Assembly (NCBI GenBank): GCA_002840845.1
Contig: PHCS01000001.1
Location: 1 to 64,000, forward strand
Direction: 5' to 3'
Origin: Betaproteobacteria bacterium HGW-Betaproteobacteria-14
GTDB lineage: Bacteria > Pseudomonadota > Gammaproteobacteria > Burkholderiales > Rhodocyclaceae
Length of the DNA stretch: 64,000 nt
Part shown: positions 3,365 through 55,694 of the stretch, piece after piece
Layout: each line of letters begins with the position of its first letter
Numbering within the stretch: position 1 is the first letter of the stretch
Program-made: the position numbers and the translations under genes
Notes under the pieces: generated by a model
The model's database searches: none
What the model saw: the letters and a program-made list of their open reading frames with translations, nothing else
Told to the model about the DNA's origin: nothing

Positions 3365-3368
3365 CTTT
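3345..3368 (+). other. Bipartite motif CGCCGT-N10-CTGACTTT, copy 2
   Basis: Both boxes exact; spacer CCCGCAGGGG. The TGA of the second box is the stop codon of the EamA gene. Confidence 0.75.
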
Positions 3369-3369
3369 T

Positions 3370-3421
3370 CCCCTCACCCCAACCCTCTCCCCGCACGCGG
3401 GGAGAGGGCGAGGGAGAGGGG
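3370..3421. repeat. Short interspersed palindromic repeat, CCCTCACCCCAACCC/GGAGAGGG family
   Basis: Contains CCCTCACCCCAACCCTCTCC followed by a CCCCGC-ACGC-GGGG hairpin and GGAGAGGG. The same element occurs at 5269-5361, inside waaA and tviB, and at the 3' end of livG. It sits directly after the EamA stop codon. Confidence 0.85.
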
Positions 3422-28474: not shown

Positions 28475-29434
28475 TTAATCCACTGAAGGGCTGACCGGCA
28501 GCGCACACGCGGCGCGATACTCCGCCGCCAGTCGTGCCGCCAGTTCGGCGGCCGGTGGCACGTCGTGGATGGTCGCCACGCCGTGGCCGGCGCTCCAGGT
28601 GTCGCGCCAGGCCTTCGCCCCCGAGCCGAAATCCTCCTTGGCATCCGTGCTGCCAAGCATCTCCTTCGTGTAGCCGGCCTGCTCCAGGCTGGGCCAGAGG
28701 AAGTTGGCATGGGTGCCGGTGATGGCCGGCGTGTAGACGATGTCCTTCGCCGTGCAGTCGAGGAGCATCTGCTTGTAGTCTTCGGGCGCCATGGACTCCT
28801 GCGTGGCGATGAAGCGCGTGCCCATGTAGGCGAAGTCCGCGCCCATCACCTCCGCCGCGCGCACCGAGGCGCCGTCGGAAATCGAACCGCCCAGCACCAG
28901 CGCACCCTCCCAGAATTCGCGGATCTCGCGCACCAGCGAGAAGGGGCTCTGCGTGCCGGCATGGCCGCCGGCGCCGCTGGCGACGGCGACGATGCCATCG
29001 ACGCCGGCCGCGATGGCCTTCTTCGCATGGTAGGCGTGGATGACGTCGCTGAAGACCACGCCGCCGTAGCCGTGCACCGCCTTCACCACCTCGCCGGGAT
29101 GGCCCAGGCTGGTGATAACGAAGGGCACCTTGTGCTTCACCACCAGTTCGAAATCCTGCTCCAGCCGCTTGTTCGAGTGGTGCAGGATGAGGTTGACGCC
29201 ATAGGGCGCCACGGGCGCCTTCGGCTTGGCCGCCATGGCCGCGCCGAGTTCGGCGTTGATCCGCGTCAGCCACTCGTCGAGCACCTCGATCGGGCGCGCA
29301 TTCAGCGTGGGGAATGTTCCGGCGATGCCGGCGCGGCAACAGGCGATGACCAGATGCGGGCCTGAGACGAGGAACATCGGCGCGGCGATGACGGGAGCGG
29401 TCATGCGGCCGATAAATATTTCTGGAAGGCTCAT
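28475..29434 (-). CDS. Nitronate monooxygenase-like FMN enzyme
   Basis: 319 residues with the NMO/2-nitropropane dioxygenase TIM-barrel pattern: PVIAAPMFLVSGPHLVIACCRAGIAGTFP, GVDGIVAVASGAGGHAG with the catalytic-type His, GGSISDGASVRAAEVMGADFAYMGTRFIATQES. Such enzymes oxidise alkyl nitronates using FMN. Some homologues in catabolic clusters act as enoyl reductases. The ATG lies 1 bp after the stop of a small membrane-protein gene, so it is in an operon with that gene and the MFS transporter. Confidence 0.87.
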   Translation of the reverse strand: MSLPEIFIGRMTAPVIAAPMFLVSGPHLVIACCRAGIAGTFPTLNARPIEVLDEWLTRINAELGAAMAAKPKAPVAPYGVNLILHHSNKRLEQDFELVVKHKVPFVITSLGHPGEVVKAVHGYGGVVFSDVIHAYHAKKAIAAGVDGIVAVASGAGGHAGTQSPFSLVREIREFWEGALVLGGSISDGASVRAAEVMGADFAYMGTRFIATQESMAPEDYKQMLLDCTAKDIVYTPAITGTHANFLWPSLEQAGYTKEMLGSTDAKEDFGSGAKAWRDTWSAGHGVATIHDVPPAAELAARLAAEYRAACALPVSPSVD

Positions 29435-29435
29435 G

Positions 29436-29570
29436 TCAGTTGCAGAAGTAGCGCTGGTTGATGTAATCGATGGCGGCCTCCGGCTTGAGGTAGCCCTTGA
29501 AGGCCCAGCCGGCGGCGAAGGCGGCGAGCGCGACGGCGAGAACGATCAGGATGAATCGCGTGGCCTTCAT
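29436..29570 (-). CDS. 44-residue single-pass membrane protein
   Basis: MKATRFILIVLAVALAAFAAGWAF forms one N-terminal membrane helix followed by a 20-residue polar tail ending DYINQRYFCN. It is too short for a separate entry in the ORF track. Its start overlaps the MFS stop codon as ATGA and its stop is 1 bp before the nitronate monooxygenase start, which supports real translation. No family is recognised; it could be a small partner of the transporter. Confidence 0.6.
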   Translation of the reverse strand: MKATRFILIVLAVALAAFAAGWAFKGYLKPEAAIDYINQRYFCN

Positions 29571-30784
29571 CGTGCGGGCTGTGCGGAGAGTCGCGCCATG
29601 GGTCGCTCGTCCACCGGCAGGTTGACCAGCGCCGCCAGCACGCCGAGTGCAATGGCGATCATCCAGACGATGTCGTAGGCGCCGGTCATGTCGAAGATCA
29701 GCCCGCCCAGCCAGACGCCGAGGAAGCTGCCGAGCTGGTGGCTGAAAAAGACGAAGCCGGAGAGCATGGCGAGGTAGCGCACACCGAAGATCTGCGCGAC
29801 GAGGCCGTTGGTGAGCGGCACCGTGCCCAGCCAGAGCAGGCCCATGGCGGCGGCGAAGATCGCCACCGAGGTCGGCGTCAGCGGCGCCAGCAGGAACACC
29901 ACGATGACGATGCTGCGTGCGAAGTAGAGGCCGGCGAGCAGGTTCTTCTTGCGCCAGCGGCCGCCGGCCAGGCCGAAGCCGTAGGTGCCGAAGATGTTGA
30001 ACAGCCCGATCAGCGCGAGCGCCAGCATGCCGACGTTGGCAGTGAGGCCCTTGTCGAGCACGTAGGACGGCAGGTGCGCGCCGATGAACACCACCTGAAA
30101 GCCGCAGACGAAGTAGCCCAGCGTGAGCAGCCAGAAGGCGCGATGGCCGAAGGCCTCGCGCACGGCTTCGCCCGCCGACTGGGCCATGAGGTGATGCCCG
30201 CCCGCGCCTTCCCGCTCCGCCGCGCCCAGGGCCAGCGGCATCATCATCGCGGCCGCCGTGGCGAGGCCGATGAGGGCCATCAGCCAGCCGGCATTGCTGA
30301 TGATGAACTGCCCGGTCGGCACCAGCATGAACTGGCCGAAGGAGCCGGCCGCGCCCACGATGGCCAGCGCCATGGCGCGCTTCTCCGGCGCGATGGCGCG
30401 GCCGACCGCGCCGTAGATGACCGAGAAGGTGGTGGCGGACAGGCCCATGCCGACGAGAATGCCGGCGGAGAGCATGAACATGAACGGCGTCGTCGACACC
30501 GCCATCAGCGCGACGCCTGCGGCGTAGAGCAGGCCGCCGCCGAAGACGACCCTGCCCGCGCCCCAGCGGTCGGCGAGCCAGCCGGTAATCGGCCCGCCCG
30601 CGCCCCACACCAGATTCTGGATGGCGATGGCGAAGGAGAAAGCCTCGCGGCTCCAGGCGAGGTCCTGCGTCATCGGCTGCAGGAACAGGCCGAAGGTGTG
30701 GCGGATGCCGAGTGAGAGCGAGACCACGATGCTGCCGCAGACCAGCAGCAATGTCGCCGTGCGGGGAGTCACCTGAGCGTTCAT
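29567..30784 (-). CDS. Major facilitator superfamily transporter
   Basis: 405 residues with 12 hydrophobic helices. The MFS loop 2-3 motif appears as GWLADRWGAGRVVFGGG, and GRWRKKNLLAGLYF in the second half. The pattern SLSLGIRHTFGLFLQPMTQDLAWSREAFSFAIA is typical of the oxalate/formate-antiporter-like and monocarboxylate (MCP-like) MFS families. The track start is a TTG at 30811; the ATG at 30784 is preferred. It forms a coupled operon with a 44-residue membrane protein and a nitronate monooxygenase. The substrate is unknown. Confidence 0.85.
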   Translation of the reverse strand: MNAQVTPRTATLLLVCGSIVVSLSLGIRHTFGLFLQPMTQDLAWSREAFSFAIAIQNLVWGAGGPITGWLADRWGAGRVVFGGGLLYAAGVALMAVSTTPFMFMLSAGILVGMGLSATTFSVIYGAVGRAIAPEKRAMALAIVGAAGSFGQFMLVPTGQFIISNAGWLMALIGLATAAAMMMPLALGAAEREGAGGHHLMAQSAGEAVREAFGHRAFWLLTLGYFVCGFQVVFIGAHLPSYVLDKGLTANVGMLALALIGLFNIFGTYGFGLAGGRWRKKNLLAGLYFARSIVIVVFLLAPLTPTSVAIFAAAMGLLWLGTVPLTNGLVAQIFGVRYLAMLSGFVFFSHQLGSFLGVWLGGLIFDMTGAYDIVWMIAIALGVLAALVNLPVDERPMARLSAQPAR

Positions 30785-30881
30785 TGACGGGTACAATTGT
30801 TGAGTTTTCAACCACGCACTATAACATCGGGCCCGGAGCGAAAATCCACGCTGGCGCCCGGGTTAAGCCAACACACGAACC

Positions 30882-32345
30882 ATGAAGCTCAATGACCCGC
30901 AGCTCTTGAAGACGCAGGCCTATATCGACGGCGCCTGGCGCGGCGCCGATGGCGGCGCCACTTTTGCAGTGAACAACCCGGCAAGCGACGAGCGCCTCGC
31001 CGAGGTGCCCGACATGGGCGCGACCGAGACGCGGCGCGCCATCGAGGCGGCAAATGCTGCCTGGCCGGCGTGGCGGGACAAGACCGCCAAGGAGCGCGCG
31101 GCGGTGCTGCGGCGCTGGTACGAATTGATGCTGGCCCATGCCGACGACCTGGCGCTGCTGATGACCTCCGAGCAGGGCAAGCCGCTGGCCGAGGCCAAGG
31201 GCGAGGTGCTCTACGCGGCGAGCTTCGTCGAGTGGTTCGCCGAGGAGGCGAAGCGCGTCTATGGCGAGACGATTCCCGCCACCCAGGCCGACAAGCGGCT
31301 GGTCGTCGTCAAGCAGCCGATCGGCGTCAGCGCCGCCATCACGCCGTGGAATTTCCCCGCGGCGATGATCACGCGCAAGGTGGCGCCGGCGCTGGCTGCC
31401 GGTTGCACGGTGGTGGTGAAGCCGGCCGAGCAGACGCCGCTCAGCGCGCTGGCGCTGGCGGAGCTCGCACAGCGCGCCGGTTTCCCGGCCGGCGTCTTCA
31501 ACGTTGTTACCGGCAGCGCGGAGTCCGCGCCGAAGATCGGCGGCGAACTGACGGCCAACCCCATCGTGCGCAAGCTCTCCTTCACCGGCTCGACGGAAGT
31601 CGGGCGGCTGCTCATGGCGCAGTGCGCGCCGACTATCAAGAAGGTCTCGCTAGAACTGGGCGGCAACGCGCCCTTCATCGTCTTCGACGACGCCGACCTC
31701 GACGCGGCGGTGGAAGGCGCGCTCGCCTCGAAGTACCGCAATACCGGCCAGACCTGCGTCTGCGCCAACCGCCTGCTGGTGCAGGCGGGCATCTACGACG
31801 CCTTCGCGGCGAAACTGGCGGAGAAGGTGAAGCAGATGAAGGTCGGCGCCGGCACCGAGTCGGATGTCGTGCAGGGGCCGCTGATCGACGCGCAGGCGCT
31901 GGCCAAGGTCGAGGAGCATATCGCCGATGCATTGGCCAAGGGCGCCAAGGTACTGACGGGTGGCAAGCGCCATGCACGCGGCGGCACCTTCTTCGAGCCG
32001 ACGGTGATCGCCGACGTCACGCCCGAGATGAAATGCGCACGCGAGGAGACCTTCGGCCCGGTGGCGCCGCTGTTCCGCTTCACGGAAGAGGCCGAGGCGG
32101 TCGCGCTGGCCAATGCCACCGAGTTCGGTCTCGCCGCCTATTTCTTCTCGCGCGATGTGGCGCGCTGCTTCCGCGTTGGCGAGGCGCTGGAATACGGCAT
32201 GGTCGGCATCAACACCGGCATCATGTCGAACGAGGTGGCGCCCTTCGGCGGCGTCAAGCAGTCCGGCATCGGTCGCGAGGGCTCGAAGTACGGCATCGAG
32301 GAATATCTCGAGATCAAATACATGTGTTTCGGCGGAATCGTGTAA
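30882..32345 (+). CDS. gabD: NAD(P)-dependent succinate-semialdehyde dehydrogenase (GabD-like)
   Basis: 487 residues, the GabD length. It has TPWNFPAAMITRKVAPALAAGCTVVVKPAEQTPLSALALAEL, the NAD-binding FTGSTEVGR, Glu in LELGGNAPFIVFDDADLD and catalytic Cys in NTGQTCVCANR. The C-terminus FGGVKQSGIGREGSKYGIEEYLEIKY is the GabD signature. It oxidises succinate semialdehyde to succinate. It is followed, after a repeat, by an alcohol dehydrogenase in the same direction, which could supply an aldehyde. Confidence 0.9.
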   Translation: MKLNDPQLLKTQAYIDGAWRGADGGATFAVNNPASDERLAEVPDMGATETRRAIEAANAAWPAWRDKTAKERAAVLRRWYELMLAHADDLALLMTSEQGKPLAEAKGEVLYAASFVEWFAEEAKRVYGETIPATQADKRLVVVKQPIGVSAAITPWNFPAAMITRKVAPALAAGCTVVVKPAEQTPLSALALAELAQRAGFPAGVFNVVTGSAESAPKIGGELTANPIVRKLSFTGSTEVGRLLMAQCAPTIKKVSLELGGNAPFIVFDDADLDAAVEGALASKYRNTGQTCVCANRLLVQAGIYDAFAAKLAEKVKQMKVGAGTESDVVQGPLIDAQALAKVEEHIADALAKGAKVLTGGKRHARGGTFFEPTVIADVTPEMKCAREETFGPVAPLFRFTEEAEAVALANATEFGLAAYFFSRDVARCFRVGEALEYGMVGINTGIMSNEVAPFGGVKQSGIGREGSKYGIEEYLEIKYMCFGGIV

Positions 32346-32354
32346 GTCGGGCTT

Positions 32355-32409
32355 GTAGGTCGGGCTTCAGCCCGACAGCTGCCCAAGTCGGGCTGAAGCC
32401 CGACCTACG
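32355..32409. repeat. GTAGGTCGGGCTTCAGCCCGAC palindromic repeat doublet
   Basis: GTAGGTCGGGCTTCAGCCCG, a short linker, and the inverted copy ending GGGCTGAAGCCCGACCTAC. Other copies lie at 36170, 47971 and 51742. It fills the gap between the gabD-like and adh genes. Confidence 0.9.
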
Positions 32410-32420
32410 AGAGGAGGTTT

Positions 32421-33545
32421 ATGAAAATCCGTGCTGCAGTGCTGAACCAGACGGGTCTATCGGCGCCCTACGCGCAAAGCCGGCCGCTCGCCATCGAGAC
32501 GCTGGATCTGGGCGCGCCCGGCAAGGGAGAAGTGCTGGTGCGGATCGCCGCTGCCGGCCTGTGCCATTCGGATCTGTCGGTGATCAACGGCGACCGGCCG
32601 CGTCCGGTGCCGATGGCGCTGGGCCATGAGGCTGCGGGCGTCGTCGAGCAGGTGGGCGAAGACGTGGCGGATCTGGCGCCCGGCGACCATGTCGTCATGG
32701 TGTTCGTGCCGAGTTGCGGCCATTGCGGTCCTTGTGCCGAGGGGCGGCCCGCGCTGTGCGAGCCGGGCGCCGCGGCGAACACCGCCGGCACCCTGGTCTC
32801 GGGCGCGCGGCGGCTGTCGCGCAATGGGACGGCCATCCAGCACCACATGGGCGTGTCCGCCTTTGCCGATCACGCCATCGTCTCGCGCCGCTCGCTGGTG
32901 CGGATCGATCCCGAACTTCCGCTCGACGAGGCGGCGCTGTTCGGCTGCGCGGTACTGACCGGCGTCGGCGCGGTGGTGAATACCGCGCGCGTGCCGCCGG
33001 GCAGCAGCGTCGCCGTGCTCGGACTGGGCGGGGTCGGCCTGAATTCCCTGCTGGCCGCCGTCGCTTCGGGTGCGGAAAAGATCATCGCGCTCGACATGAT
33101 CGAGAGCAAGCTGCAACTGGCGCGCCAACTCGGCGCGACGCATGCGGTGAACGCCGGGGACAAGGATGCCATCGAGCAGGTGAAGGCGCTCACGCAGGGC
33201 GGGGTCGATTATGCCTTCGAGATGGCCGGGTCGGTGGCGGCGCTGGAACTGGCCTACCGCATCACGCGCCGCGGCGGCACCACCGTCACGGCCGGCCTGC
33301 CCAATCCGCAAAGCAACTGGCCGCTGCAGGCGGTCACGCTGGTTGCCGAGGAGCGGACGGTGAAGGGCAGCTACATCGGCTCCTGCGTGCCGAGCCGCGA
33401 CGTGCCGCGCTACATCGCGCTCTATCGCGCCGGCAAGCTGCCGGTGGACAAACTGATGAGCGCGCGCATCGCGCTCGATGACATCAACGCCGGCTTCGAC
33501 CGCCTCGCTTCAGGCGAGGCGGTGCGGCAGGTGATCGTTTTCTGA
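32421..33545 (+). CDS. Zinc-dependent medium-chain alcohol dehydrogenase
   Basis: The 374-residue MDR enzyme has the catalytic zinc region CHSDLSVINGDRPRPVPMALGHEAAGVV, structural zinc cysteines CGHCGPCAEGRPALC, and Rossmann VAVLGLGGVGLNSLLAA. It resembles class III/aryl-alcohol type dehydrogenases that act on larger alcohols. An AGAGGAGG Shine-Dalgarno sequence precedes the ATG, immediately after the repeat. With the preceding semialdehyde dehydrogenase it could oxidise an alcohol to an acid in two steps; this is inference from adjacency. Confidence 0.88.
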   Translation: MKIRAAVLNQTGLSAPYAQSRPLAIETLDLGAPGKGEVLVRIAAAGLCHSDLSVINGDRPRPVPMALGHEAAGVVEQVGEDVADLAPGDHVVMVFVPSCGHCGPCAEGRPALCEPGAAANTAGTLVSGARRLSRNGTAIQHHMGVSAFADHAIVSRRSLVRIDPELPLDEAALFGCAVLTGVGAVVNTARVPPGSSVAVLGLGGVGLNSLLAAVASGAEKIIALDMIESKLQLARQLGATHAVNAGDKDAIEQVKALTQGGVDYAFEMAGSVAALELAYRITRRGGTTVTAGLPNPQSNWPLQAVTLVAEERTVKGSYIGSCVPSRDVPRYIALYRAGKLPVDKLMSARIALDDINAGFDRLASGEAVRQVIVF

Positions 33546-33571
33546 AACCGGATTGATGCGTTGAGGCGGCA

Positions 33572-34030
33572 TTACCTGCAATAGGCGTCGGCCTGCTTCT
33601 GCCATGTATCGGCGAAGCGTCCGCGCTCATCGTCTTCCATATAGATGCGCTCGCCATCCTTGCCCATGCGGTAGAGGGGACGCTCCTGCGTGAGGGACTC
33701 CAGGGCGCGGCGCGCCTGCCGGCATTTGTCTTCAGTTTCCTGGGCTTTTTTCTGCTGATCCTGCCGCCGCTTTTCTTCCTGGAAGCGGCGTTCGTTCGAC
33801 TCCTGCAACTGTTCCTGCCAGCTGCGGCTGGGCGGCGGCGCTTGCGTGTTGTCGAGTAGTGGTTGCGGGTTCGCCCCGAGTTTTTTGGCCGCCTTGCCGA
33901 CAGGCGGCGTGTCGGAATAATGCACCACGCCTTTGTCGTCGACCCACTTGTAGAGCCCGCCCGAAGCCAGGGCGGCGGGTGCCGCGACCCAGCCGTAGAC
34001 ACACAGAAACAGCGCAAGCCCGCGGCGCAT
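33572..34030 (-). CDS. DUF4124 domain-containing secreted protein
   Basis: 152 residues. A signal peptide (RRGLALFLCVYGWVAAPAALA-SG) is followed at once by the DUF4124 motif GLYKWVDDKGVVHYSDTPP. A Gln/Glu/Arg-rich coiled-coil-like stretch (QEQLQESNERRFQEEKRRQDQQKKAQETEDK) and a short C-terminal region with KDGERIYM follow. The family is common in betaproteobacteria and its function is unknown. The track start is a TTG; the ATG at 34030 is used here. It lies 10 bp downstream of thiC and may be co-transcribed. Confidence 0.82.
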   Translation of the reverse strand: MRRGLALFLCVYGWVAAPAALASGGLYKWVDDKGVVHYSDTPPVGKAAKKLGANPQPLLDNTQAPPPSRSWQEQLQESNERRFQEEKRRQDQQKKAQETEDKCRQARRALESLTQERPLYRMGKDGERIYMEDDERGRFADTWQKQADAYCR

Positions 34031-34040
34031 GGACAACGCC

Positions 34041-36014
<1,974 letters not shown>

Positions 36015-49112: not shown

Positions 49113-50444
49113 ATGAAGAAGACCCTGACCCTGCTTGCGCTTGCCCTCACTGCCGTGCCGGCGTTTGCCGCAGACCTGCTGCAGGTCTATCGCGACGCGA
49201 TCGAATACGATGCCCAGTACGCCTCGGCGAAGGCGGCGCGCGATGCCGGGCTGGAAAAGCTGCCGCAGGGACGCGCCGGCCTGCTGCCGGTGATCTCTGC
49301 TTCGGCCAGCACGGTGCGCAACGATGTGGACTACGAGCGCCGCTTCCCCGGCGCGGCCGGCATGGATGCGCGCTACAACACCAACGGCTACCAGCTCACC
49401 CTGACGCAGCCCCTCTTCCGCTGGCAGAATTTCGTGCAGTACGACCAATCGAAGCTGCAGGTGACGCTGGCCGAGGCGCAGTTCGCGCAGGCCCGGCAGG
49501 ACCTCATCCTGCGCGTGGCGCAGGCCTATTTCGACGTGCTCCTCGCTCAGGACAGCCTGGACCTGGCGCAGGCGCAGAAGAAGGCCATCGGCGAGCAGCT
49601 CGAGTCGGCCAAGCGCAACTTCGAGGTGGGCACCTCCACCATTGTCGACACGCACGAGGCGCAGGCGCGCTACGACCTCGTCACGGCGCAGGAGCTGGCC
49701 GCAGGGAACGACCTGGAGATCAAGCGCCAGGCGTTGAACCAGGTCATCGGCAAGGTGCCGGAGCGGCTCAACGCGCTGCGCCCGCAGGTGCAATTGCAGC
49801 GCCCGCAGCCGGACGACATCGCCAAATGGGCGGAGAGCGCCGAGACGGGCAGCCCGCTCGTCGCCGTGCAGCAGGCGGCGTACGAAATCGCCGAGAAGGA
49901 AATCGGCCGGCAGCGTGCCGGCCACTACCCGACGCTCGACCTGGTGGCGACGCGCGGCCGCAGTTCCGCCACCGGCGGCCTGGCGCTCGGCGTCCCTGCG
50001 CCCGGCAGCGACACCCACACTACCACGGTCGGCCTGCAACTTTCCGTGCCGCTCTTTGCCGGCGGCGCAGTGATGTCGAAGGAGCGCGAAGCCGTCGCCC
50101 TGCGCGAGAAGGCGCGGGCCGATCTCGATACCACGCGACGCAGCGCCGTCCTCGGCGCCCGCCAGGCCTATCTCGGCGTCACCAGCGGCATGGCCCAGGT
50201 GAAGGCCTTCGAGCAGGCGCTGGTGTCCAACCAGTCGGCCCTCGATTCGAACAAGCTGGGCTACGAAGTCGGCGTGCGCATCAACATCGACGTGCTCAAC
50301 GCCCAGCAGCAGCTCTTTTCCACTCGCCGTGATCTTGCCAAGGCGCGCTACGACACCCTGCTGGCGCAGCTGAAGCTGAAGGCGGCGGCAGGTACCCTGG
50401 GCGAGGACGACGTCCAGGCCATCAACGCATTGCTCGAGAAATAA
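49113..50444 (+). CDS. tolC: TolC-family outer membrane efflux protein
   Basis: 443 residues. A signal peptide (KKTLTLLALALTAVPAFA-AD) is followed by two OEP repeats with long helical stretches: DLLQVYRDAIEYDAQYASAKAARDAGLEKLPQGRAGLLP, TLTQPLFRW, and the second-half VGLQLSVPLFAGGAV...LREKARADLDTTRRSAVLGARQAYLG. It forms the outer-membrane exit duct for RND or type I systems. It is the natural partner of the two pumps upstream, although it is in a separate unit. The ATG at 49113 was chosen over the track start. Its 3' end overlaps waaA tail to tail by 23 nt. Confidence 0.93.
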   Translation: MKKTLTLLALALTAVPAFAADLLQVYRDAIEYDAQYASAKAARDAGLEKLPQGRAGLLPVISASASTVRNDVDYERRFPGAAGMDARYNTNGYQLTLTQPLFRWQNFVQYDQSKLQVTLAEAQFAQARQDLILRVAQAYFDVLLAQDSLDLAQAQKKAIGEQLESAKRNFEVGTSTIVDTHEAQARYDLVTAQELAAGNDLEIKRQALNQVIGKVPERLNALRPQVQLQRPQPDDIAKWAESAETGSPLVAVQQAAYEIAEKEIGRQRAGHYPTLDLVATRGRSSATGGLALGVPAPGSDTHTTTVGLQLSVPLFAGGAVMSKEREAVALREKARADLDTTRRSAVLGARQAYLGVTSGMAQVKAFEQALVSNQSALDSNKLGYEVGVRINIDVLNAQQQLFSTRRDLAKARYDTLLAQLKLKAAAGTLGEDDVQAINALLEK

Positions 50445-51738
50445 GCTCGAGCGTCTTCGCCGTGGCGCCGCGGTGGCGCGCGGCGAATTCGATTCCCGCG
50501 GTGCCCATGCTATTTTGCGCAGCTTCATCGCGCAGCAGGGCATCGGCTGCCTCCAGCAATTCCTCCGCTGAACCAATCTGCCGTGCCGCGCCGCAGGCCA
50601 GCGCCTGCTCGGCCGCCTGCGCAAAATTGAACGTCGAGCGTCCGATCAGCACCGGCTTGCCGACGGCGCAGGCCTCGATCAGGTTCTGGCAGCCGTAGTC
50701 GAGCAGGCTGCCGCCGATGAAGGCGACGTCGCAGGCGGCGTAGTAGGCGAACAGTTCCCCCATGCTGTCGCCGAGCAGCACCTGCGTCTGCGCGTTGATG
50801 GGCGTGTTTTCGCTGCGCCGCTGCAGGGTCAAGCCAATTCTGCCCGCCAGCGCGGCGACTTCCCCGAAGCGCTGCGGGTGGCGCGGCACGACGACCAGCA
50901 GCGCCTCTCCCAGCGAGCGCTTCGCCAGGGCCGCGAACAGCAGCGCCTCTTCGCCCTCGCGCGTGCTGGCGGCGAGCAGCACCGGGCGCGGCCCGATCAT
51001 TTGGCGCAGGGCTTCGCCGCGCGCGATCTGCTCCGGCGGCGGCAGGATGTCGAACTTCACGCTGCCCAGCACCTCGACCTGCGGCGCACCCAGCGCGCGC
51101 AGGCGCGCGGCATCGGCTTCCGTCTGCGCGGCGATGGCCGCCAGGCCCTGCAGCGCACCGCGCGTCAGGTTCGGAAAGCGGGCATAGCGGCGCGCCGACT
51201 TTTCAGAAAGGCGGGCGTTCGCCAGCAACAGGGGAATACCGTTCTCCTTGCAGGCCGCCACCAGATTCGGCCAGATCTCGGTTTCCATGATGATGCCGAC
51301 GGCGGGCCGGAAGTGCTTCAGGAAGCGTTGCACGGCAAACGGGTAGTCGTACGGCAGATAGGCGCGCAGCACGCCGTCGCCCAGCAGGTCTGCGGAAGCC
51401 TGGCGCCCGGTCGGCGTCATGTGCGTGAGGAGGATGCGATGCTGTGGATAGCGCACCTTCAGGGCCGCCACCAGCGGCACCGCCGCGCGCGTCTCGCCGA
51501 CCGAGACGGCATGCAACCAGATCAAACCCTCTCCCCCGACCCCTCTCCCGCTCGCGGGAGAGGGGAGGCCGGCCCCCTCTCCCCTCAGGGGAGAGGGTTG
51601 GGGTGAGGGGAAAAAGCCGAACCGCTCCCCGACATGCTGCAGATATTCCGTCTGCTTCCGGCTGCGCAGGAGCAGGTGCAGGCCGACATACGGCAGCAGG
51701 AGCAGCAGCGCCAGGTTGTAGAGCAGGCGCGCCATCAT
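50422..51738 (-). CDS. waaA: 3-deoxy-D-manno-octulosonic acid (Kdo) transferase with an in-frame repeat insertion
   Basis: 438 residues. An N-terminal membrane anchor (RLLYNLALLLLLPYVGLHLLL) is followed by GT-B domains. The catalytic Glu is in WLHAVSVGETRAA, with MTPTGRQ, LLLANARLSEKSARRYA, DSMGELFAYYAACDVAFIGGSL and GCQNLIEACAVGKPVLIG. It adds Kdo to lipid A. Between ERFGF and IWLHAVSVGE, where other WaaA proteins have a short linker, there are about 28 extra residues (SPQPSPLRGEGAGLPSPASG...) translated from two palindromic repeats. The frame stays open, so the protein is probably made. It is followed by waaC in the reverse direction after a repeat. Confidence 0.93.
   Translation of the reverse strand: MMARLLYNLALLLLLPYVGLHLLLRSRKQTEYLQHVGERFGFFPSPQPSPLRGEGAGLPSPASGRGVGGEGLIWLHAVSVGETRAAVPLVAALKVRYPQHRILLTHMTPTGRQASADLLGDGVLRAYLPYDYPFAVQRFLKHFRPAVGIIMETEIWPNLVAACKENGIPLLLANARLSEKSARRYARFPNLTRGALQGLAAIAAQTEADAARLRALGAPQVEVLGSVKFDILPPPEQIARGEALRQMIGPRPVLLAASTREGEEALLFAALAKRSLGEALLVVVPRHPQRFGEVAALAGRIGLTLQRRSENTPINAQTQVLLGDSMGELFAYYAACDVAFIGGSLLDYGCQNLIEACAVGKPVLIGRSTFNFAQAAEQALACGAARQIGSAEELLEAADALLRDEAAQNSMGTAGIEFAARHRGATAKTLELISRAMR
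51525..51610. repeat. Two palindromic repeats inserted in frame within waaA
   Basis: CCCTCTCCCGCTCGCGGGAG and the opposite-orientation CCCCTCAGGGGAGAGGGTTG-GGGTGAGGGG form a doublet of the same family as at 3370 and 5269. All of it is translated as part of WaaA. Confidence 0.9.
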
Positions 51739-51741
51739 TCC

Positions 51742-51822
51742 GTAGGTCGGGTTGTAGGTCGGGCTTCAGCCCGACAGCTGCGGTCAATCGCTGGCCAATG
51801 TCGGGCTGAAGCCCGACCTACA
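51742..51822. repeat. GTAGGTCGGGCTTCAGCCCGAC palindromic repeat doublet
   Basis: A partial unit, then GTAGGTCGGGCTTCAGCCCG, linker, and the inverted copy ending GAAGCCCGACCTACA. It fills nearly the whole gap between waaA and waaC. Confidence 0.9.
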
Positions 51823-53955: not shown

Positions 53956-54320
53956 GTGACCCCTCGCGAAGCCGCCCACTACCAAGTACTCCGCCTGATC
54001 GAGGAACAGCCCGAGATCAGCCAGCGCGAGCTTGCGCGCACGTTGGGGGTCAGCCTCGGCAAGACCCACTACCTGCTCAAGGCCCTGCTCGACAAGGGCC
54101 TGGTCAAGGCCGACAACTTCCGCCGCAGCGACAACAAGCTGGCCTACGCCTATCTGCTCACGCCGAGCGGCATCGCCGCGAAGCTGGAGCTGACGCGCGC
54201 CTTCCTGCGCTTGAAGGAAGGCGAGTATCAGGCCGCACGCGAGGAAATCGCGCGATTGCGCAAGGAACTGGATGCGACAATCGCGCCGACCGAACCCGAC
54301 ATGCCCGCAAGGAAAGCGGG

Positions 54321-54324
<4 letters not shown>
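53956..54324 (+). CDS. MarR-family EPS-associated transcriptional regulator
   Basis: 122 residues. The winged-helix reads HYQVLRLIEEQPEISQRELARTLGVSLGKTHYLLKALLDKGLVKADNFRRSDNK, followed by YAYLLTPSGIAAKLELTRAFLRLKEGEYQAAREEIARLRKEL. This matches the MarR_EPS family that heads exopolysaccharide loci in betaproteobacteria and deltaproteobacteria. The start is a GTG. The stop overlaps the tviB start as ATGA, so regulator and first biosynthetic gene are coupled. Confidence 0.92.

Positions 54325-55694
<1,370 letters not shown>

Follow-up and report, generated by a model that had tools for sequence, protein, structure and literature searches.

A repeat pair in frame within waaA

The window, by which we mean the whole 64,000 nucleotide stretch of DNA analysed here, carries on its minus strand the gene for lipid IV(A) Kdo transferase, and within this gene lie two palindromic repeats. 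The features of the locus, together with a second repeat-bearing gene of the window, are as follows.

50422–51738, minus strand: waaA/kdtA, lipid IV(A) Kdo transferase, 438 aa, ATG start, frame open throughout
51661–51735, minus strand: N-terminal membrane-anchor helix, residues 2–26 in the AlphaFold2 model
51527–51610, minus strand: in-frame repeat doublet, residues ~44–71 (PSPQPSPLRGEGAGLPSPASGRGVGGEG), between ERFG and IWLHAVSVGE; hairpins adjacent, tails outward
51573–51610, plus strand: unit 1, CCCTCTCCCC-TCA-GGGGAGAGGG-TT-GGGGTGAGGGG, the canonical TM/PIT triplex motif
51527–51564, minus strand: unit 2, CCCTCTCCC-GCGAGC-GGGAGAGGG-GTC-GGGGGAGAGGG, with variant third block and tail
51508–51525, minus strand: beta-1 of the catalytic N-domain, IWLHAV, residues 72–77 in the AlphaFold2 model, directly after the insert
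51749–51822, strand not assigned: palindrome pair of the unrelated GTAG type (GTAGGTCGGGCTTCAGCCCGAC) immediately before the waaA start, of a family that occupies the WaaA loop in genomes G021 and G109
54793–54830, plus strand: second in-frame copy of the repeat in the window, inside a UDP-ManNAc/UDP-glucose dehydrogenase gene (54207–55691)

The product is a WaaA by score, motif and fold. It reaches 598 bits against the NCBIfam equivalog NF004386 (cut-off 524), matches Pfam PF04413 and PF00534, has the SVGE motif after IWLHAV (E82, in invariant alignment columns) and is homologous to WaaA proteins of solved structure (2xci and 4bfc), the first of which is the top Foldseek match to its AlphaFold2 model. 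This model, computed from a 48-sequence alignment, has a mean pLDDT of 93, falling below 50 at residues 51–64. One full-length waaA, and no second intact copy, was found in the source assembly (G000), a draft of 104 contigs that is 94.5% complete and may thus lack about 5.5% of the genome. The catalytic domain has a dN/dS of 0.20–0.31, indicating purifying selection.

The two exact hairpins occupy 51541–51564 and 51575–51597, their tails reaching 51527 and 51610, respectively, so that the term head-to-head used in the preliminary description is correct if the hairpin is taken as the head. Six exact hairpins of this type occur in the window against 0.00 expected from 100 dinucleotide shuffles, and unit 1 shares 27 identical nucleotides with another copy at 3366–3392. 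Single-strand folding at the waaA repeat is predicted to be strong (z -3.3, from a duplex folding prediction). Within WaaA the repeats encode 28 residues, all in frame, from which the peptides PSPQPSPLRGEG..., FGFFPSPQPSPLR, GEGAGLPSPASGR and GVGGEGLIWLHAVSVGETR would be predicted. The tail of unit 2 is GGTCGGGGGAGAGGG; as read from the sequence, the canonical tail GGGTTGGGGTGAGGG would place a TGA in the waaA frame, and the copy that was kept is therefore one that can be read through.

The linker from ERFG to IWLH measures 31 residues here compared to the usual 10 of repeat-free relatives (10 residues in 63 of 113 parsed rows, in which some genomes are counted twice). Since 28 residues are repeat-encoded, about seven native residues must be missing, which leaves a net gain of about 21 aa; the preliminary description was right about the number of repeat-encoded residues, but not in treating all of them as added. 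A simple insertion would not be expected to remove the native loop, and pure insertion was rejected for both WaaA and PolA, as native loop residues are missing in each.

As the model places the anchor helix at residues 2–26, disorder at 51–64 and beta-1 at 72–77, the insert enters just before beta-1, between membrane anchor and WLHAVSVGE as first described. In the predicted structure it is a disordered linker joining the anchor to an otherwise normal fold. In the general layout of Rossmann-type domains the point of entry to beta-1 is at the sheet edge away from the active-site cleft, a position which fits tolerance of an insert. The earlier suggestion of a tolerated loop gains support from the single full-length gene, the dN/dS value, the disorder of this loop in a confidently modelled fold and the intact frame of every repeat-bearing waaA allele seen.

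Identity of the repeat

The unit has the form CCCTCTCCC-loop-GGGAGAGGG-NN-GGGGNGAGGG, or carries GGGGTGAGGG as its third block, and corresponds to the G/C-rich intrastrand triplex motif TM/PIT, i.e. CCCTCTCCC, a loop of 1–6 nucleotides, GGGAGAGGG, a short loop and a G-rich third block. Compared with Table 1 of Holder et al. 2015 (PMC4666352), unit 1 is an exact match and unit 2 corresponds with GGGGGAGAGGG as its third block. Judged from sequence, the waaA repeats are thus potentially triplex-forming, G/C-rich palindromes of the TM/PIT type. The elements called TM, TMECO or PIT in that study share with ours the blocks CCCTCTCCC, GGGAGAGGG and GGGGTGAGGG, the short loops, the interspersed distribution, the inverted pairs and a link to local deletions and variability, the motif being associated with genome instability in E. 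coli; the triplex forms in vitro, but no stable triplex was seen in vivo (PMC4666352). All 23 copies of E. coli K-12 are intergenic (PMC4666352), which is a property and not part of the formal definition, whereas in our source genome at least 13 of 55 clusters lie in frame in conserved genes.

The units begin with CCCTCNCCCC or end with GGGGNGAGGG and lack the unpaired tag at the stem end that characterises GTAG/CGTC REPs. Nor do they resemble REP/REPIN elements in being associated with a cognate Y1 (RAYT) transposase: a search for Y1 transposases in G000 found none, and among the Y1 genes present in 8 of 16 genomes of the genus none is flanked by the TM repeat, while some are flanked by the GTAG family. 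No transposase of this kind that could mobilise the TM repeat came to light. The REP/REPIN–RAYT system (PMC2817692; PMC3116915) does have a counterpart in the second palindrome family, GTAGGTCGGGCTTCAGCCCGAC, which in G011 flanks a Y1 (RAYT-like) gene immediately downstream of waaA (locus L269, repeats at 1330 and 1938, gene at 1501–1821), but the TM repeat in the waaA of the window is of another family.

The window also holds seven copies of another, 32-nt repeat (..CGCCGTCCCGCAGCGGCTGACTTTC; 3339, 4657, 8155, 17750, 43843, 54525 and 55340), one of which abuts the TM repeat at 3366, as well as CGTCATTCCCGCGAAAGCGGGAATCCAG palindromic repeats and CACAGAGGCACAGAG repeats (15638, 18933, 24975 and 25303; 23165 and 44772).

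The WaaA loop among relatives

A repeat-derived WaaA loop (doublet, single unit or half-copy) is present in 9 of the 14 genomes of the same genus with a WaaA match, distributed as follows.

Doublet: G000, G002, G010
Single unit: G004, G006, G008, G003
Half-copy: G001, G014
Native loop: G005, G007, G011, G015
Little or none, possibly a remnant: G009

G019, from another genus, has a single TM unit in the same loop. Trimmed forms such as PSPQRGEG and PFSPRGEG are nearly of native length, and homologues without repeat DNA do not have the repeat-encoded residues. In a tree of the catalytic domain, loop state differs between supported sister groups: G000 (doublet) and G004 with G006 (single), G008 (single) and G001 (half), G014 (half) and G015 (none). 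The G000 and G002 loops agree in two-unit structure, unit order and the variant tail of unit 2, while G004 and G006, the closest relatives of G000, carry one unit; on these sequences the simplest reading is that the one-unit loops near G000 arose by unit loss.

Same-genus species with repeat-derived loops differ by ~15–22% of nucleotides in the catalytic part of the gene. Comparison of loop states across the genus thus indicates that the insertion is not recent, and the recent movement proposed in the preliminary description, for which a doublet shared with G002 would not be expected, finds no support.

The same loop has also been occupied by other repeats. In G021 and G109, of another genus, it contains GTAG-type palindromes (TAGGTCGGGCTTCAGCCCGAC), and in G120 and G165, of a third genus, members of the CCCCCTCCC/GGGAGGG family, their relative G060 having none.

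The waaA of G008 appears to be mosaic, its anchor part resembling G007 and G003 and its catalytic part G001, and the switch lies close to the repeat loop. Identity to G007 is 95% before the loop and 80% after it (Fisher p 2.5e-5, 120-nt segment), and identity to G001 80% before and 92% after (Fisher p 3e-4, 120-nt segment), both p-values being for genome pairs chosen after looking. This pattern suggests recombination near the loop. G008 also has a second, partial waaA at a contig end (contig C118, 8924–9979), possibly reflecting strain mixture or contamination.

In-frame repeats in other genes

Pattern searches of G000 counted 69 TM units at up to two mismatches, compared to six for a reversed control pattern. 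The 69 units form 55 clusters, of which 13 or more fall within conserved coding frames as judged from codon-position G+C and Pfam domains: in waaA, the UDP-sugar dehydrogenase gene, uvrA (three), hypF, an acyl-CoA dehydrogenase gene, hsdR (two), trpC, polA and the genes for a YgiQ-like radical SAM protein and an FAD oxidase. The UDP-sugar dehydrogenase gene (54207–55691) has a degenerate second unit beside its TM copy, and its relatives carry a single insert, a different one or none.

Two further proteins repeat the pattern of WaaA. In TrpC, directly after CILLIVAA, TM pairs are found in G000, G010, G013 and G004; G012 has a shorter TM-like loop, G011 and G005 carry GTAG pairs, and G002, G007, G001, G008 and G009 keep a short native loop. 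In this protein the repeats may have entered by pure insertion. The UvrA linker before LEILGA.EHNLK contains TM pairs in four species and is native in four, while G011 and G001 have a different insert (TPF..KGG..PPGPPF.KGG). Unrelated palindrome families thus occupy the same residue position across genera in WaaA and within the genus in TrpC and UvrA. In the PolA exonuclease linker one TM copy, common to seven genomes, replaces the native linker. On contig C13 of G000 (29385–35237) we also observed a very long UvrA-type frame (1963 codons) that seems to consist of two UvrA halves and contains repeat insertions at three separate places.

Paired TM copies are hairpin-adjacent in all six cases inside genes but in only 3 of 16 elsewhere (Fisher p = 0.001), an exploratory comparison in which pairs were classified by eye from coordinates and 'elsewhere' denotes all remaining pairs, whether intergenic or not. 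The other 13 are tail-facing. Hairpin-adjacent pairs leave 3–6 frames open and tail-facing pairs mostly 2–3, and stop codons as the sole cause are insufficient to account for 6:0 versus 3:13.

Relation to known intragenic palindromes

In-frame palindromes in proteins are already known from Rickettsia and from GTAG/CGTC REPs, and the present one is an unusually clear case. Rickettsia palindromic elements (Ogata, Claverie; as cited in PMC3733652) likewise occur in frame in many unrelated protein genes and are apparently tolerated, but their sequence is different, as is the bacterial class, and we liken the TM repeat to them by behaviour without claiming membership. Proteins decorated with RPE-1 are expressed in vivo according to that citing article, whereas TM-decorated proteins are predicted here from their genes.

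Di Nocera et al. 2013 (PMC3733652) describe GTAG/CGTC REPs inside genes of several bacteria, notably uvrA and DNA polymerase I, either single or in pairs that encode 20–30 aa. They also describe two Xanthomonas species whose recB genes carry different REPs at approximately one site. Singles and pairs, uvrA and DNA polymerase I, and sites shared by different repeats all recur here, but the TM repeat is without GTAG/CGTC tags, and here sites are shared by different repeats in waaA, trpC and uvrA, in the case of waaA across several genera. WaaA and TrpC are not among the REP-bearing proteins named in the sections of that article consulted, and a literature search for WaaA with repeat insertions found nothing relevant. 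To this the present case adds a TM motif placed in frame, and sites in waaA, trpC and uvrA that unrelated families have occupied repeatedly.

Origin and maintenance of the repeat-derived loop

We propose that a repeat pair probably lodged in frame in a permissive WaaA linker long ago, and that selection confines such repeats to the few loops of this kind, where they are translated and remodelled. TM and other repeats would land or be copied widely in the genome, in-gene copies surviving only where the protein tolerates a flexible stretch rich in Pro, Ser, Gly and Glu and the frame stays open. The linker between membrane-anchor helix and first beta-strand is probably one such place, and would for this reason have collected several unrelated palindromic repeats independently. 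Once lodged, the repeat could be remodelled to two units, one or a half, plausibly by slippage between hairpin arms, with changes that may be neutral for the enzyme. It may have displaced native residues by deletion on insertion or by later trimming, and the missing native loop in WaaA and PolA would, by analogy, agree with reported deletions near TM motifs in E. coli. Wide spread with survival in open, permissive linkers would account for the conservation of frame, the way in which unrelated repeats settle in the same loops, and the free variation in unit number.

A stronger version, which we regard as unlikely, holds that these loops act as permanent docking sites where one palindrome is replaced by another, unrelated one, an existing repeat loop, unconstrained and unstable as DNA, favouring the next arrival; proteins would thus gain interchangeable linkers, and in waaA the repeat would mark a recombination boundary between anchor and catalytic parts.

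That repeat-derived loops are kept in many species could mean that they have some use. The Pro/Ser-rich peptide might, for example, have a selected role in spacing the anchor from the catalytic domain, as its retention or renewal in many species, the near-native length of the trimmed forms and the replacement of the native linker in PolA as well would allow. Such domestication is nevertheless improbable, since sister species manage without the repeat loop, its sequence, length and repeat family vary freely and the same peptide is found in unrelated enzymes.

Two readings are less probable again. One, that the doublet jumped into waaA recently and in the G000 lineage only, would explain the perfect TM motif of unit 1 and its 27-nt identity to the copy at 3366–3392, but is very hard to reconcile with loops of the same boundaries in nine genus members and in G019, and with the two-unit structure of G002. 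The other makes the peptide a by-product of a hairpin or triplex, formed by the gene or its mRNA, that modulates waaA expression or recombination; strong single-strand folding, the association of the motif with instability in E. coli and the mosaic waaA of G008, G007 and G001 point that way, but close relatives have half-copies and repeat-free loops and no stable triplex could be detected in vivo (PMC4666352), and we give it scarcely any weight. An assembly error or a dying gene, conceivable in a 104-contig draft, is very unlikely, since the same class of insert occurs, always in frame, in G001 and G002, whose genomes are single contigs, and in assemblies made independently, and dN/dS is well below 1.

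A motif reported only from intergenic sequence in E. coli K-12 thus frequently lies in frame within genes elsewhere, and repeat-bearing loops mark insertion-permissive positions in enzymes. WaaA, TrpC and UvrA in one genus provide clean natural replicates of selfish or unstable palindromes becoming protein sequence.
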